Shown here in pieces: positions 9,582-15,598 of a DNA stretch of 64,000 nucleotides. The DNA comes from Terriglobia bacterium (lineage in GTDB: Bacteria > Acidobacteriota > Terriglobia > Acidiferrales > UBA7541), in contig JAIMAG010000002.1 in assembly GCA_023512135.1 (NCBI GenBank), forward strand, positions 248,001-312,000. Reading direction: 5' to 3'. How positions within the stretch are numbered: the stretch's first letter is position 1; the number at the start of each line of letters is the position of its first letter. The notes beneath the pieces were generated by a model, which saw only the letters and a program-made list of their open reading frames with translations, had not been told where the DNA came from and searched no databases. The position numbers and the translations under genes were made by a program.

Positions 9582-10649
9582 TTACCGCGACGCGGCGAAC
9601 GGATGCTCGAAGCTGAGATAGAGAAAAATGCCCCACTCGCCGCGGTTCGCGCGCCCCACTTCCACAGGAAAAGCGATGCCGGGCACGATCTGCAAGCCGT
9701 TCGCAAAGTTGTACGCCCAGCGGAACCCCGGGTTGAGGATCACGCTGTTTTCCCACACCGCATCGCCTGGAGCAGCCACACTCTGCTGGCTCGAAAACAA
9801 CACCTCCAACAGCGGGTTGAAACGCGGATGCAGCCGCCAGATGAAACTCTGGCCGACGAAGTATCCGTATGTGGCGGCCTCCTCGCCGGCAGGATTCTTC
9901 GCATTGGGCACAATCGAGCCGCCGGCATTGAAGTGCGTCACCAACTGCTCGTGCAGGGTGATGCTCACCGGCAGATTGAACTCCACGCCGGTGCCGCCGG
10001 CACCACGCCCCTGGCGAGAATCACCCGTAGGCAGCAGCAGGCTGATGCGCGGGGCGATCGCCACCGCTCCACCATCCTGGCCGGCGAGCTGATAGCGGTA
10101 GTTCAACAGCAAATCGCCCAGGCCGCCGCCGGCACCGGGCACCGTTTCGTAGTCGGCTACCGCCAGCGTGTAGCTGAACTGATGTCGCGGCGCCGGCTGC
10201 ACCGGCCATTCCTGTGTGAACGTGAATTCCCAGTCGCCGCGGCGACCGCGCTGGAAGGCGTTGATGTGCTGCACGACCCCGTATTCCTGGTTGTAGGCTT
10301 CTTCGATCAGAAAACTGTTGTCGGCGATATGCGGATCCCCCGCCGTCTGCGCCGGGCGAGCCACACGCGCACGGGCAGCCTCAGTCGGACGCCAGTAGAC
10401 CCGTTCTGGCAGAACACTTCCCGCTTCGACCTCGAGACGAGGCCGGCGCGGTACGGAAAAATCCACAGTTTTGTCCGTACGCTCTGGAGCTGCCATCGCC
10501 GGCGGCTTCCGGCCTGCGTTTGCCGTTGTCGAAGTTTTTCGCTCTTCGAGCTCCTGGCCGCCAGCCAGTGCGGGCAGCAAAATCGTTGTCAGGACAACCG
10601 CACAGGCAGCCAGGACAGAACGGCACACCATCAGCGCCAACCCTTTCAT
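9582..10649 (-). CDS. outer-membrane beta-barrel protein, MetA-pathway transporter-like
   Basis: Protein of 355 residues with a signal peptide ending near LPALAGGQ. After a low-complexity linker (residues 35-100) comes a series of alternating amphipathic strands such as GDWEFTFTQEWPV, GLGDLLLNYRYQL and AIAPRISLLLPTGDSR. The ending FLYLSFEHPFAASR carries aromatic residues, as expected for a barrel. The LPTGDSRQGRG segment recalls the uncharacterised outer-membrane transporters annotated as meta-pathway of phenol degradation (MetA) proteins. It is the third gene after the multicopper oxidase and ZIP genes with a 50-base gap, so it may be the outer-membrane part of that system. The substrate is not known. 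Confidence 0.6.
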   Translation of the reverse strand: MKGLALMVCRSVLAACAVVLTTILLPALAGGQELEERKTSTTANAGRKPPAMAAPERTDKTVDFSVPRRPRLEVEAGSVLPERVYWRPTEAARARVARPAQTAGDPHIADNSFLIEEAYNQEYGVVQHINAFQRGRRGDWEFTFTQEWPVQPAPRHQFSYTLAVADYETVPGAGGGLGDLLLNYRYQLAGQDGGAVAIAPRISLLLPTGDSRQGRGAGGTGVEFNLPVSITLHEQLVTHFNAGGSIVPNAKNPAGEEAATYGYFVGQSFIWRLHPRFNPLLEVLFSSQQSVAAPGDAVWENSVILNPGFRWAYNFANGLQIVPGIAFPVEVGRANRGEWGIFLYLSFEHPFAASR

Positions 10650-10699
10650 GCGTTTTTTCTCCTGGGTGACGGCATTGCGGCGGCGCGGCGCCGCAACGT

Positions 10700-11905
10700 T
10701 CAGACCGTTATGAACAGCCCCGTAGCATACATCACAGCCAGGCCGAGCAAGAAACCCGAGACATTGGCTGGCTGCGCGAACGCCAAGCCGTGCTCGCGTC
10801 GCATCTGGGCTGCGATTTCCAGCACCACCTGAAACACAGCGCCGGCACCGATGGAAATAAACAGCACGGCCAGCAGCGGTGAAGGCGTGAAGGCCCCCAT
10901 CGAAGTTCCCAGAATCGTCGGGAGACCGGCCAGCAGCCCGAGCCAGATCAGATGCCGCCAGCGGCCCGTGCCGAATTCACTGCGGACAATCGGCGCGACG
11001 ATGGCCACGCCCTCCGTCAGATTGTGGATCATGAAGCCGATGATCAGCAGCGCCCCGGTGGCCACCTCACCGAGCGCGTAGGCGCCGCCGATGGCCAATC
11101 CCTCTCCCAGATTGTGGATGCCGATGCCGAAGGCCACCAGATAGGCAATCGTCAGCGACATCTCGCCGCCGCGGGCCTGCTGTCGTGCTTCGATTGTCCG
11201 GGAAAGCGCATACAGCCCCAGCAGGCTCAACGCCACACCGATGGCAATCACCCCTACGCCCTGGTAGGGTCCGGGCAAATGCTGGGCTTCTGCCAGAGCG
11301 TCGGCCAAGGCATCCACACCAATAAACACCAGCAACCCGATGGTCAGGCTGAGCAGGAATCCATACGCCCGCCGGCCGAGCTGGCGCAAAAACGGCAACC
11401 AGAGAATGCCCAAAAACACCGGCAACACGCCCACGTAGATGCCCAGCATGGCAAACTGCCCGAAGCTGCGCGCGCTCCACTGCGGCGTGGCCGTGGCGAT
11501 GGCCACTTCGTGCACAAAGGGAATCCCATTCGAACTGAACAGCACAATCTCGTAGGGTTCGCCCTCCGTCCAGGGATACGGAATGATGACCTGCGCGGTG
11601 CCCAGTCGCGGGATGGTCGGCGAGGGAACGATGGAAAAATCCCAGCTCGCGCGGCTGAACCATCCCACCTGCACGTGTGCGATTGTCACGGGTCCCGGCC
11701 CGACGTTGCGGATGTGCGCCACAATCCGTTCGGGAACTGCCCCACTGGCCGGCAGAAGCACCACGCGTTCATAGGTAACTGCCTCGATAGGCGCGGGAGC
11801 TTCGAACCGCAGCCCGCCGGTCGAGTGCCAGAACCAGACGAGCAGCACCCCGAGCAACAACACCGGCAGCAGAAAACTAGCCCAGACGGTCCATTTGGAT
11901 GACAT
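10700..11905 (-). CDS. ZIP family metal transporter with extracytoplasmic N-terminal domain
   Basis: Membrane protein of 401 residues. One N-terminal span is followed by a beta-rich, probably Ig-like periplasmic domain (about residues 40-145), then eight hydrophobic segments. The two metal-site helices of ZIP transporters are clear: HNLGEGLAIGG and HNLTEGVAIV, each with the conserved His/Glu ligands. ZIP proteins move Zn, Mn or Fe into the cytoplasm. The start lies 3 bases after the multicopper oxidase stop, so the pair is tightly coupled. The extra soluble domain is unusual for ZIP and could dock the oxidase or a metal chaperone; this is inference. Metal specificity cannot be read from the sequence. 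Confidence 0.85.
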   Translation of the reverse strand: MSSKWTVWASFLLPVLLLGVLLVWFWHSTGGLRFEAPAPIEAVTYERVVLLPASGAVPERIVAHIRNVGPGPVTIAHVQVGWFSRASWDFSIVPSPTIPRLGTAQVIIPYPWTEGEPYEIVLFSSNGIPFVHEVAIATATPQWSARSFGQFAMLGIYVGVLPVFLGILWLPFLRQLGRRAYGFLLSLTIGLLVFIGVDALADALAEAQHLPGPYQGVGVIAIGVALSLLGLYALSRTIEARQQARGGEMSLTIAYLVAFGIGIHNLGEGLAIGGAYALGEVATGALLIIGFMIHNLTEGVAIVAPIVRSEFGTGRWRHLIWLGLLAGLPTILGTSMGAFTPSPLLAVLFISIGAGAVFQVVLEIAAQMRREHGLAFAQPANVSGFLLGLAVMYATGLFITV

Positions 11906-11908
11906 GGA

Positions 11909-13015
11909 TCAGTTCCCTGCCCCGGCCGCGGGGTGCGCATGAGAGGCGGGCTGTGCAGCGCGGTCCGCTTTCGGTTTCACCTGAAACCAGCCCATCAGGC
12001 CCAGCTCCATGTGCTCGGTCAGATGGCACTGGAACATGTACGGTCCGGGCGAATCGTACTGGAATTCCAGGATGGCGCGCTCGGCAATGCCCAGCGTCAG
12101 CACGTCGGTCAGCTCCTGTGGCTTGAGCGACGTTCCGGAGCGGATCAAGTGAAACATATTGCCGTGGATGTGCGGGGCCATCGGCTCTTCAAAAATGTTC
12201 ATCACGTACATGCGTACCTTTTCTCCCACCGTCAGCTCGATCGGATGATCGGCGTACTGGAACGCTTTACCATTCCAAGCATAGAAATCGGCTTCCCCGT
12301 CGCGATCCAGGTCAAATGCACTCATCACCATGGCCAGTTCGCGCATCGGGGGCCGGTCTTCGCGTGGATCGATGATCATCATCCCGTACAGGCCGTTGTG
12401 GATGTGCTGATTGGTGGGCATCGAATGACAGTGATACGGAAACACACCGTAGGGCCGGGCGACGAATTCGTAGGTGAATTCCCCGCCGGGTGGTACCAGC
12501 TCGAACACACCGTCCATCTCCGCCGGGTGGATTCCGTGGAAGTGGATCGTGTGCGGCAGCTTGCCGCGGTTGATCAATTTGATGCGCATCAGGTCGCCCT
12601 CGCGACCGCGCAGCACGGGCCCGGGGACTGTGCCGTTGAACGCCCAGGCGGGCATGTGCACACCGGGAGCGACTTCGTGCACGACGTCCTCGGTGATCAC
12701 CAGCTCGTACTCGTGCACGCGGCGGTCGCGCGGCGGCGGAGGTGGCGGCGTCGGATCGTAGACCGCTTCCGCCGGCAGGCGTCGTGCCGGATAGGCGTAC
12801 TGGTAGGTTTCGCTGCCCTTGGTCGGTGGACGATGATGACCAAACCTGTGCTCCGCGTCCTGGGCAACTTCTAGGGCGGCGCGCACCCCCGCGTGCGCGC
12901 CGCCCCACCGGAACAGTGCGACCGCCACAACGGCAGTCAGCACGCCCAGACCCAGAATCCCTTTCCACAAGAGCTGTCTTCCTAACACTGGCTTACTGTC
13001 TTTATTAATTCGCAT
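11909..13015 (-). CDS. membrane-anchored two-domain multicopper oxidase
   Basis: Cupredoxin-type oxidase of 368 residues with an N-terminal membrane anchor (ILGLGVLTAVVAVALF) and a proline-rich linker. Copper motifs are HTIHFHG (155-161) and YHCHSMPTNQHIHNG (194-208) in domain 1, then PHIHGNMFH (281-289) and FQCHLTEHMELG (328-339) in domain 2. The last motif has Gln329 where canonical oxidases have a type 3 copper histidine. Possible roles are metal-ion oxidation or reductive metal handling with the adjacent ZIP transporter. The ATG at 13015 lies 9 bases after a TAGTAT -10. A TTG at 12970 preceded by AGGA at about 9 bases is an alternative start just before the membrane helix. Confidence 0.85.
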   Translation of the reverse strand: MRINKDSKPVLGRQLLWKGILGLGVLTAVVAVALFRWGGAHAGVRAALEVAQDAEHRFGHHRPPTKGSETYQYAYPARRLPAEAVYDPTPPPPPPRDRRVHEYELVITEDVVHEVAPGVHMPAWAFNGTVPGPVLRGREGDLMRIKLINRGKLPHTIHFHGIHPAEMDGVFELVPPGGEFTYEFVARPYGVFPYHCHSMPTNQHIHNGLYGMMIIDPREDRPPMRELAMVMSAFDLDRDGEADFYAWNGKAFQYADHPIELTVGEKVRMYVMNIFEEPMAPHIHGNMFHLIRSGTSLKPQELTDVLTLGIAERAILEFQYDSPGPYMFQCHLTEHMELGLMGWFQVKPKADRAAQPASHAHPAAGAGN

Positions 13016-13024
13016 TAACACTGA

Positions 13025-13053
13025 ATACTAAATGAAGTTAATACACTTGTCAA
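13025..13053 (-). promoter_or_regulatory. sigma-70-type promoter of the multicopper oxidase operon
   Basis: On the - strand TTGACA (13048-13053), 17 bases, TAGTAT (13025-13030). The surrounding 50 bases are AT-rich compared with the neighbourhood. Transcription would begin at or just before the ATG at 13015. Confidence 0.65.
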
Positions 13054-13160: not shown

Positions 13161-14360
13161 CTAACCCAGGAGGTTGCGGGCTGTCTCGAGGAATGCTTCC
13201 AGCCGGGCCGCTTCGGGCACGAGACCCTGAGCAAACTGCGGAGTACCTCCGCCGCGACCGCCTGCTGCGGCCAGGGCCTGCTGGAGCAACACGTTCATGT
13301 CTCCCTGCAGTCCACGTGACTGCGCAAAGATGACGTGGCCACCGAGCCGCGTGCCCACCAGGACACGCACCCGGTCTTCGGCGATCATCTTGTTCACCAG
13401 CAGCCGCAGATAGCCGGGCTCGAGATGCTCGAAGACATGGACGAGCTGCCGGATGCCGTCGGAGCGCGTTTCGGCCCGGGTGGCCAGCAGCGACAGCGCT
13501 TCGAGCTCAGCCAGATGTTCCTGCAGTCGTTGCCGCTCCCGGTAGAGGGCCTGCCGTTCCTCCAGCGCACGCGTCACCAGGGTGGGCACCTCGGCCGGGT
13601 TGCAGCTCAACCGTCGCGCCACTTCGCCGAGCGCTTCGAAATCGGCGCGCGCTGCGGTCACCGCACGCTGCCCGCAGAGGAACTCGACGCGCCAGTGGCC
13701 GCGCACCTTTTCGCACCGGCGCAACAGAATGCAGCCGATCTGGCCGGTGCGCGCCACGTGGGTGCCACCGCACGGCTGCCGGTCGCAGCCTTCGATTTCC
13801 ACGATCCGCAACAGACCGGTGCGTGCCACCGGCCGGCGTACGTCCAGCTCCGCGAGCTCTTCGGCGCGTGCCCAGCGAATCTCCACAGGTCGGTCTTCGG
13901 TGACGATCGCGTTGGCATACTGCTCGGCTTCGGCCAGCTGCTGCGGCAGCACGGCCCGCGCTTCCAGATCGATTGTCGAAGCATTGCGGCCCAGATGAAA
14001 CGACACAGTGGGCAGCCCGAAGTGTTCCACGAACACAGCCGAGAGCAGATGCTGGCCGGTGTGCTGCTGCATGTGGTCCCAGCGGCGCGGCCAGTCGATG
14101 GCCCCGTGCACCGGCCCGGGCGCAAGCGCGCGGTCGGTCACATGCACCACCGTACCATCCTCGGTTTCGTACACGTCCAGCACGCGCGCATCGGCAAGCC
14201 TGCCGGTGTCGTGCGGCTGGCCTCCTGAAGTGGGATAGAACGCGGTGCAGTCGAGCACCACCTGCCAGCGCTCTGGCTCTCCGGGCATCGGCGCACAGGA
14301 CATCACGTGCGCAGCAAACTCTCGCAGGAAGGCATCGTGGTAGTAGAGCCGTTCCGTCAT
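13161..14360 (-). CDS. AlaX-like alanyl-tRNA editing protein (AlaX-L)
   Basis: Trans-editing factor that hydrolyses mischarged Ser- or Gly-tRNA(Ala). It resembles the second half of alanyl-tRNA synthetase: FYPTSGGQPHDTG in the beta-barrel, then the zinc/catalytic motifs HTGQH (100-104) and CGGTH (197-201). The C-terminal part (GGRGGGTPQFAQG) is the DHHA1 domain, so this is the long form of the family. There is no aminoacylation domain. At 399 residues the size fits. The start ATG overlaps the threonine synthase stop (ATGA), so a frame extension to 14495 is rejected. The pair thrC-alaX is transcribed leftward. Confidence 0.9.
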   Translation of the reverse strand: MTERLYYHDAFLREFAAHVMSCAPMPGEPERWQVVLDCTAFYPTSGGQPHDTGRLADARVLDVYETEDGTVVHVTDRALAPGPVHGAIDWPRRWDHMQQHTGQHLLSAVFVEHFGLPTVSFHLGRNASTIDLEARAVLPQQLAEAEQYANAIVTEDRPVEIRWARAEELAELDVRRPVARTGLLRIVEIEGCDRQPCGGTHVARTGQIGCILLRRCEKVRGHWRVEFLCGQRAVTAARADFEALGEVARRLSCNPAEVPTLVTRALEERQALYRERQRLQEHLAELEALSLLATRAETRSDGIRQLVHVFEHLEPGYLRLLVNKMIAEDRVRVLVGTRLGGHVIFAQSRGLQGDMNVLLQQALAAAGGRGGGTPQFAQGLVPEAARLEAFLETARNLLG

Positions 14361-15598
14361 GGTTCTCGGCGATTCGACGTGCGCGCTGTGGGCGGCTCGG
14401 CCGGACGCGCTCGCAACGCCTCTGCCCAGGCTTCCGCATATTTGTAACCGCTGCCGGTGTTGAACAGCACCACGGTTTCCTCGGCGCGAAGCCAACCCTG
14501 CTCCCGCAGGCGACGCGCAGCCGCCACCGTGGCAGCACCCTCGGGTGCGGCGTAGATGCCTTCCCTGGCGGCCAGTTCGCGTCCCGCTTCGAGCATGGCT
14601 TCGTCCGGCACAGCCACGGCGGTTCCCGAGCTGCTGCGAATCGCTGCGAGCATCAAGAAATCGCCCAGCGGTTTGGGCACGCGCAGGCCAGACGCTATCG
14701 TGCGCGCGTCTTCCCAGAATTCACAGGATTCTCCGCCCTTTTCGAAGGCCTCCACGACCGGCGCGCAGCCGGCTGCCTGCACCGCCACCATCCGAGGCCG
14801 TTCCGGTCCGATGCAGCCGATCGCTTCCAGTTCGTCGAATGCTTTCCACATGCCGATCAGGCCCACACCGCCACCGGCCGGATAGAGAATCACGTCGGGG
14901 AGTCGTCCGAGCTGCTCGAACAGTTCCAGACCCATCGTCTTCTTGCCCTCGATCCGGTAAGGCTCTTTCAGCGTGGTGACTTCAAACCAGCCGCGGTGCT
15001 GCTTCTGCTCGGCCACATACCGGGCACAGTCGCTGATCAAACCGTCCAGTTGGACCACTTCCGCGCCAAATGCGCGGCATTCCAGCACGTTGGCGGCGGG
15101 CGTATCGGCGGGCATCACCACCACGCAGCGCAGTCCGGCGCGCGCCGCATAGGCGGCCAGTGCGCCGCCGGCATTGCCCGCCGTCGGTATCGCCAGCGTT
15201 TGCGCGCCGAGCGCTTTGGCTCGCGTAACCGCGGCTGAAAGTCCGCGGGCTTTGAACGAACCGGTGGGATTCAAACCCTCGTCCTTGATGAACAGATTCG
15301 GCAGCCCGAGCCCTTCGCCCAGCCGGCGCGTGTGCAGCAACGGGGTGAATCCTTCGCCCAGGGAGACCGGCTCGCCCGGTGGCAGCAGTTCGCAGTAGCG
15401 CCACATCGAAGCCGGCCGAGGCGGCCGCGACGGCTCGCCGCCATTCGGGCGAAGCCACGGCGCGAGCGTCCGTGCGGCGGCGCGCAGGTCATACCGCGCC
15501 AGCAACGGTCCGCCACAGGAACAGAGGTTGATCAACTGCTCGTGCGGGTACAGTCGCCGGCAGCGCGAGCATTCCAGATGGGTCAGCGCGCTCTGCAT
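14357..15598 (-). CDS. thrC: threonine synthase
   Basis: PLP enzyme converting O-phosphohomoserine to threonine. The N-terminus carries a small Cys cluster (LECSRCRRLY and NLCSCGG), common in the compact class of bacterial threonine synthases. The PLP lysine lies in NPTGSFKARG. The GNAGGALAAYAARAG and PAGGGVGLIGMWKAF loops bind the cofactor phosphate and ring. At 413 residues the size is normal. The ATG at 15598 is chosen because it starts the zinc-ribbon region and lies 9 bases after a TG-C-TACACT -10. The same frame runs on to 15985 but overlaps the divergent HAD gene. Homoserine kinase is not nearby. Confidence 0.92.
   Translation of the reverse strand: MQSALTHLECSRCRRLYPHEQLINLCSCGGPLLARYDLRAAARTLAPWLRPNGGEPSRPPRPASMWRYCELLPPGEPVSLGEGFTPLLHTRRLGEGLGLPNLFIKDEGLNPTGSFKARGLSAAVTRAKALGAQTLAIPTAGNAGGALAAYAARAGLRCVVVMPADTPAANVLECRAFGAEVVQLDGLISDCARYVAEQKQHRGWFEVTTLKEPYRIEGKKTMGLELFEQLGRLPDVILYPAGGGVGLIGMWKAFDELEAIGCIGPERPRMVAVQAAGCAPVVEAFEKGGESCEFWEDARTIASGLRVPKPLGDFLMLAAIRSSSGTAVAVPDEAMLEAGRELAAREGIYAAPEGAATVAAARRLREQGWLRAEETVVLFNTGSGYKYAEAWAEALRARPAEPPTARTSNRREP

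Follow-up and report, generated by a model that had tools for sequence, protein, structure and literature searches.

The question raised by this locus is what a membrane-anchored multicopper oxidase, a ZIP-family transporter with an additional domain and an outer-membrane beta-barrel accomplish together. The three genes (P0001, P0002 and P0003) were found on the minus strand of the window, which is the whole 64,000-nucleotide stretch analysed here (contig JAIMAG010000002.1, positions 248,001 to 312,000; C6:248001-312000 in our contig numbering) from a Terriglobia bacterium whose assembly (GCA_023512135.1) contains 2.83 Mb in 51 contigs. An earlier note on this DNA had described them as contiguous genes behind one good promoter, forming a three-part route for metal acquisition or oxidation across a diderm envelope. 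All three open reading frames (ORFs) were found where the note had placed them, with a gap of 3 bases between the oxidase and ZIP genes followed by a gap of 50 bases between the ZIP and barrel genes (Table 1), and the base composition of the three-gene region was that of the remaining window. The three-part route was supported by the conserved gene order, and the gene neighbourhood points to acquisition as the likelier of the two options, with a Mn/Fe-type divalent metal as the probable cargo and a more conjectural part for the oxidase. The module is read here, with somewhat better than even confidence, as an operon that imports such a metal across the two-membrane envelope.

The oxidase-ZIP pair was found to be conserved far beyond the window. 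A scan of 84,980 species gave at least 589 confirmed stretches, and the counts given below for 80 loci refer to the best-scoring 80, which lean towards the query and are no random census. The oxidase gene was found directly upstream of the long ZIP gene on the same strand in all 80 loci, which belong to bacteria and archaea and span Acidobacteria, Gemmatimonadota, Chloroflexi, Bacillota, NC10, Woesearchaeota and others. The sample of Acidobacteriota (297 genomes) contained nine genomes besides close kin with a strong ZIP match, all nine with the oxidase directly upstream, and the ZIP was present in 47 of 249 genomes of Gemmatimonadota, with the oxidase at each of the 30 loci read. Matching plasmid records numbered 147 and included those of cyanobacteria, Deinococcus, haloarchaea and actinobacteria. 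The distance matrices of oxidase and ZIP were correlated (r = 0.76; shuffled maximum 0.10), a correlation to which shared descent contributes too. The neighbourhood search proposed in the note thus found the pair adjacent in every sampled locus, and a loss of gene order, which the note had named as grounds against a module, was not seen. Within the taxonomic order to which the window belongs, its genus and each of the five genomes sampled from a sister family (f83) had the pair, which was not found in the rest of its own family as sampled, a patchy distribution that fits horizontal transfer or loss.

The neighbours of the pair point to the kind of metal. Of the 80 loci, 50 had a gene of the DtxR/MntR family no more than about 6 kb from the pair and 17 had an NRAMP gene nearby; the same BLAST seeds detected neither in control stretches that were taken from 13 genomes and totalled 760 kb. 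About 37 of the 50 DtxR genes adjoined the pair, as read off the distances: about 27 immediately preceded the oxidase and about 10 immediately followed the ZIP. One sampled DtxR neighbour contained the Fe_dep_repress, Fe_dep_repr_C and FeoA domains, and one sampled NRAMP neighbour was of full length. Barrel genes at loci without the pair also had DtxR (8 of 40 loci) and NRAMP (4 of 40) genes nearby. Among annotated plasmids, a 'metal-dependent transcriptional regulator' was found beside oxidase and ZIP in six of the nine that were read, with the arrangement regulator-oxidase-ZIP on plasmids of Haloprofundus, Halobaculum, Salinigranum, Deinococcus, Rubrobacter and Paenarthrobacter. Both DtxR-family regulators and NRAMP transporters have well-established functions in the homeostasis of Mn and Fe. 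For Mn, this type of role is described for NRAMP and DtxR (PMC9334652). Both kinds of gene are linked to each half of the module, which suggests a Mn/Fe-like cargo and a response of the module genes when that metal is scarce.

Two neighbourhoods are recorded as observations of their own. In Woesearchaeota (L061, L068, L081-L083, L086 and L102), the order regulator-oxidase-ZIP-NRAMP was nearly constant, with ZIP/NRAMP gaps of 2-99 bases. Three haloarchaeal plasmids (L160, L297 and L298) contained a constant cluster that runs from a metal-dependent regulator through oxidase, ZIP and a plastocyanin-like protein to a Tat-signal protein and two genes annotated as iron transporters.

The ZIP protein scored 31.2 bits against PF02535, below the curated cut-off of 35.1 (32.6 in the search at DNA level). 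The model (mean pLDDT 86.9) was found to contain one N-terminal helix, followed by a beta-sandwich and eight helices, which agrees with the extra soluble N-terminal domain described in the note. The core superposed on BbZIP (5tsa) with Z 20.8 and 3.0 A over 222 residues and had its eight-helix fold. The metal motifs HNLGEG (residues 264-269) and HNLTEG (residues 294-299) were present in helices 4 and 5; H264, N265, E268, N295 and E298 were invariant in the 80 relatives, and position 294 was occupied by either H or Q. The eight-helix core and the conserved HN..EG motifs are thus common to BbZIP and the window protein, whereas the N-terminal helix and the sandwich are additional in the latter, whose gene in the sampled loci was always found beside an oxidase gene. 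Two further ZIP genes of the same genome were of the ordinary kind and lay elsewhere. The sandwich was closest to the archaellum stator proteins FlaG/FlaF (FlaG: Z 11.8, 1.5 A over 89 residues), a match of fold only that gives no function and was set aside as a functional clue. The sandwich is predicted to sit on the outer face of the inner membrane.

The oxidase was found to contain both cupredoxin halves, Cu-oxidase_3 with 85.5 bits and Cu-oxidase_2 with 104.5 bits (cut-offs 21 and 20.4). Ligand roles were assigned via the alignment of the 80 relatives and known multicopper oxidase chemistry. The type-1 copper ligands H157, C198 and H206, kept in 79-80 of the 80 relatives, and the axial L211 were all assigned to domain 1, followed by H160, H162, H197, H199, H284, H286 and H333 for the trinuclear site. 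The latter are seven of the eight expected histidines, and the place of the remaining type-3 histidine was occupied by Q331. At position 331, 77 relatives had His; Gln was found in the window and the remainder of its genus, in the sister family and also in one relative from Neomarinimicrobiota (L156); since the latter shares the QCH form, this form represents a subclade and not a sequencing error. The subclade (L119-L124 and L156) was found to contain the motif FQCH...EHME.GLMGW(F) in domain 2 (window 12026-12046; region of residues 326-332), which adds C332, H337 and L342, spaced like the type-1 motif in domain 2 of laccases, and the third position of this would-be type-1 site (281) was Met and not His. 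The subclade thus appears to have lost one type-3 ligand (His to Gln) and to have gained a Cys and a His in domain 2. The closest solved sequences were the two-domain multicopper oxidases 3gdc (E 4e-68) and 7rab (E 3e-58), for which no paper was found in the open-access literature; they share the type-1 Cys of domain 1 with the window protein, whereas the window protein lacks one type-3 His (Q331) and contains C332, H337 and L342 in domain 2. An EF-hand-like loop, D-x-D/N-x-D-x-x-x-D/E, was kept in all 80 relatives (D237, D/N239, D241 and D/E245). By its sequence the protein stands as a two-domain multicopper oxidase with type-1 copper in domain 1, from which normal catalysis does not follow.

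The third gene product was found to contain a signal helix, followed by a disordered stretch (residues 30-106), the conserved DNSFLIEEAYNQE motif (residues 110-122) and 12 predicted strands, in agreement with the outer-membrane barrel named in the note. The mean pLDDT of the model was 68, with most of the barrel at 80-90. Foldseek matched it to FapF (E 2e-9) and to the COG4313 channel 4rl8 (E 6e-6), matches that rest on a 10-sequence alignment and a moderate-confidence model. No Pfam or NCBIfam family matched the window protein, and PF13557 was matched by 10 of the 15 aligned barrel proteins (best E 7e-25). The 12-strand barrel is common to this protein, the PF13557/COG4313 channels and FapF, whereas the DNSFLIEEAYNQE motif and the genomic link to DtxR, NRAMP and oxidase-ZIP belong to the window barrel family.

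With an iterated profile, the barrel gene was found directly after the ZIP gene in L039, L041, L042, L045, L053, L076 and L105, as the second gene downstream of it in L111 and upstream of the oxidase gene in L040; the profile widens with each round, and the matches in L041, L042, L045, L076 and L111 were weaker than those in L039, L053 and L105, which were also matched by plain phmmer. A barrel was found by the pair in none of 45 loci from groups without an outer membrane and in 9 of the 35 others (p = 0.0003), the groups being assigned by record title with Chloroflexi counted as monoderm. The barrel is an add-on to the pair, restricted in these data to phyla that have an outer membrane. It was found as the third gene in the genus of the window, in several Gemmatimonadota and in a small number of further diderm phyla. 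Among the 249 genomes of Gemmatimonadota, 33 contained a DNSF-type barrel, and barrel and ZIP occurred together in 14, where about 6 would be expected (p = 0.0006). Thirteen of these 14 had both on one contig and the barrel no more than 1.3 kb from the pair, separated from it by 9-120 bases or, where the barrel was upstream of the oxidase, by about 1.2 kb. A chance grouping of the three genes was rejected on the strength of this barrel linkage and of the pair conserved in the 80 loci and in Gemmatimonadota. The barrel tree, a quick build with many weak forks, needed at least eight changes of linkage to the pair, of which at least three were forced by well supported branches, and the linkage therefore arose more than once.

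Two further settings of barrels were recorded. In the sister family f83 (L120-L124 and L040), at least three of the five genomes had a barrel gene ahead of the oxidase gene whose product was only about 25% like the barrel of the window; the barrel there seems to have been swapped for another. In a further family of Acidobacteriota, f24 (L197, L198, L200, L207, L214 and L215), lone DNSF-type barrels were found in a stable context by an S46-like peptidase gene and a TonB-type receptor gene.

In the import operon proposed here, metal would enter the periplasm through the barrel. There the two-domain copper oxidase, anchored in the inner membrane and exposed on its outer face, would act on a metal ion or on oxygen, and the long ZIP, with its sandwich facing the periplasm and possibly in contact with the oxidase, would carry the divalent metal into the cell. 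The pair, in most relatives under or beside a DtxR/MntR-type repressor, would be switched on at scarcity of Mn or Fe. ZIP proteins import Mn, as does the outer-membrane channel MnoP (PMC9334652), and in Pseudomonas putida GB-1 intracellular Mn increased as a result of Mn oxidation (PMC3798386). The least secure part of the scheme is the role of the oxidase, which could be a metal oxidase, could bind the metal and hand it on, or could convert Cu(I) by oxidation so that the importer does not take it up.

Several observations weigh against this import of Mn or Fe. The window contained no adjacent DtxR or NRAMP gene, the single matches of the genome lying on contig C13 (DtxR) and at C6:86 kb (NRAMP), and some plasmid copies of the pair were found among copper, mercury or cobalt genes. 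Oxidation of Fe or Mn ahead of a ZIP is chemically odd, because ZIPs carry divalent ions, and the type-3 ligand predicted to be missing in the subclade may make oxygen reduction abnormal. The MCO1-permease pair of Nitrososphaera viennensis, moreover, was found to increase under copper limitation (log2 0.81 and 1.33; PMC7785015).

This induction is the starting point of the leading alternative, copper acquisition, which is held to be unlikely. As in the model proposed for the pair of ammonia-oxidising archaea, the oxidase would turn Cu(I) to Cu(II) and the ZIP would import Cu(II); the case for MCO1 in copper acquisition is made again in a later paper (PMC12448741), and small cupredoxins were found near 11 of the 80 loci, whereas DtxR repressors and NRAMP transporters (Mn/Fe) dominate the neighbourhood across phyla, and the archaeal changes are modest and possibly indirect, the oxidase being itself a copper protein, as PMC7785015 allows. 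Less likely again is metal defence, with a module that deals with surplus Mn, Fe, Co or Cu by oxidation or removal and a ZIP for overflow or export: the 147 plasmid records, some of them by P-type ATPases, ArsR regulators, CopZ, MerF or CbtAB, would suit it, whereas the ZIP retains its complete metal motifs, known ZIPs are importers, the targets of DtxR-family repressors are mostly uptake genes, and a barrel adjoining NRAMP fits uptake. Improbable, finally, is the passenger reading, in which oxidase and ZIP cooperate and the barrel is a general channel picked up by chance, for the absence of the barrel from most oxidase-ZIP loci, its other contexts in many genomes and the different, poorly similar barrel of the sister family have to be set against its adjacency in 13 of the 14 co-occurring genomes of Gemmatimonadota, the repeated origin of the linkage, and the barrels on either side of the pair and also by NRAMP/DtxR, which drift would be hard-pressed to explain.

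The claim of one good promoter was not supported statistically. The promoter-like site upstream of the oxidase was the sole match in 4 kb, shuffled sequence averaged 0.8 matches, and the site was dropped as evidence for an operon. Its use would place the transcription start at about 13018, within the oxidase ORF as listed, and would make the TTG at 12970 behind AGGAAG a likelier start codon. The palindrome beside it is a possible operator, as judged from its letters. A scan of the gap between ZIP and barrel genes reported no terminator-like site, and a GC-rich hairpin there was without a T run and folded no better than shuffles; a transcript break after the ZIP gene, which the note had said would refute the module, was rejected on these grounds.

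Table 1. Positions of the module genes and associated features in the window
Feature	Position	Strand	Basis
Two-domain multicopper oxidase P0001 with N-terminal membrane anchor	13021-11909	minus	ORF of 370 aa as listed; Pfam
ZIP-family transporter P0002 with extra N-terminal helix and periplasmic beta-sandwich	11905-10700	minus	ORF of 401 aa; profile, model
Outer-membrane beta-barrel P0003	10649-9582	minus	ORF of 355 aa; model
Predicted beta-sandwich of the ZIP protein, residues 40-137 (about), FlaG/FlaF-like, immunoglobulin-like	11495-11788	minus	model
EF-hand-like loop DLDRDGEAD of the oxidase, residues 237-245	12287-12313	minus	alignment
Sigma-70-like promoter TTGACA-17-TAGTAT	13053-13025	minus	well placed, not above chance
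Palindrome TTAAT-GCGA-ATTAA just downstream of the promoter-like site	13005-13018	minus	read from sequence

Upstream of the oxidase, the minus strand of the window (13161-14495) contained a gene that by its look encodes a DHHA1/AlaX-type alanyl-tRNA editing protein, with no evident metal link. Elsewhere in the genome, contig C29 (about 183955-187000; L034 9956-12280) was found to contain a Cas12g gene of 774 aa (PADLOC, 1189 bits), followed by the presence of a CRISPR-like array (L034 12471-12971) with 66-base spacing and at least seven units in the stretch.

The oxidase-ZIP pair itself is already known from ammonia-oxidising archaea, as the note had correctly stated: in N. viennensis a zinc/iron permease gene adjoins the gene of MCO1 (NVIE_000600/NVIE_000590; PMC7785015). 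As in the window, the gene of a two-domain oxidase lies next to that of a ZIP-type permease, and the type-1 site of MCO1 is reported with an axial Leu (PMC7785015), the counterpart of L211. The archaeal pair, likened here by description, differs from the window in being without an outer membrane or barrel, and copper was assigned to it from expression. MnoP, the outer-membrane Mn channel of Bradyrhizobium, resembles the barrel in the role proposed for it, passage of a divalent metal, a works-like comparison made by description (PMC9334652). The pairing of a copper oxidase with a metal permease is shared with the yeast ferroxidase-permease Fet3-Ftr1, whereas the permease of the window is a ZIP and not FTR1 (Zip only in a Pfam scan). 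No description of a MCO-ZIP-DtxR or MCO-ZIP-barrel system was found in the open-access literature, subscription papers being outside the scope of the search, and the same holds for a barrel as third partner and for linkage to DtxR/NRAMP.

More broadly, and at less than even odds, the loci could represent a mobile Mn/Fe import system, not described before, across bacteria and archaea, with oxidase and ZIP acting together at the membrane, their genes usually by a DtxR-type repressor, and with outer-membrane channels recruited repeatedly in diderms, in which the archaeal MCO1 pair would be included. The role of the conserved oxidase has been called unclear in ammonia-oxidising archaea; the pair is widespread, is plasmid-borne in cultured bacteria and haloarchaea and lies mostly by DtxR-type repressors, and the question of the oxidase can thus be tested in organisms that grow. 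A family of outer-membrane barrels without an assigned function gains a candidate job. A scheme of a reductase plus a ZIP is familiar from metal uptake in eukaryotes; an oxidase plus a ZIP is its chemical reverse and, if import is true, would be a new mechanism.

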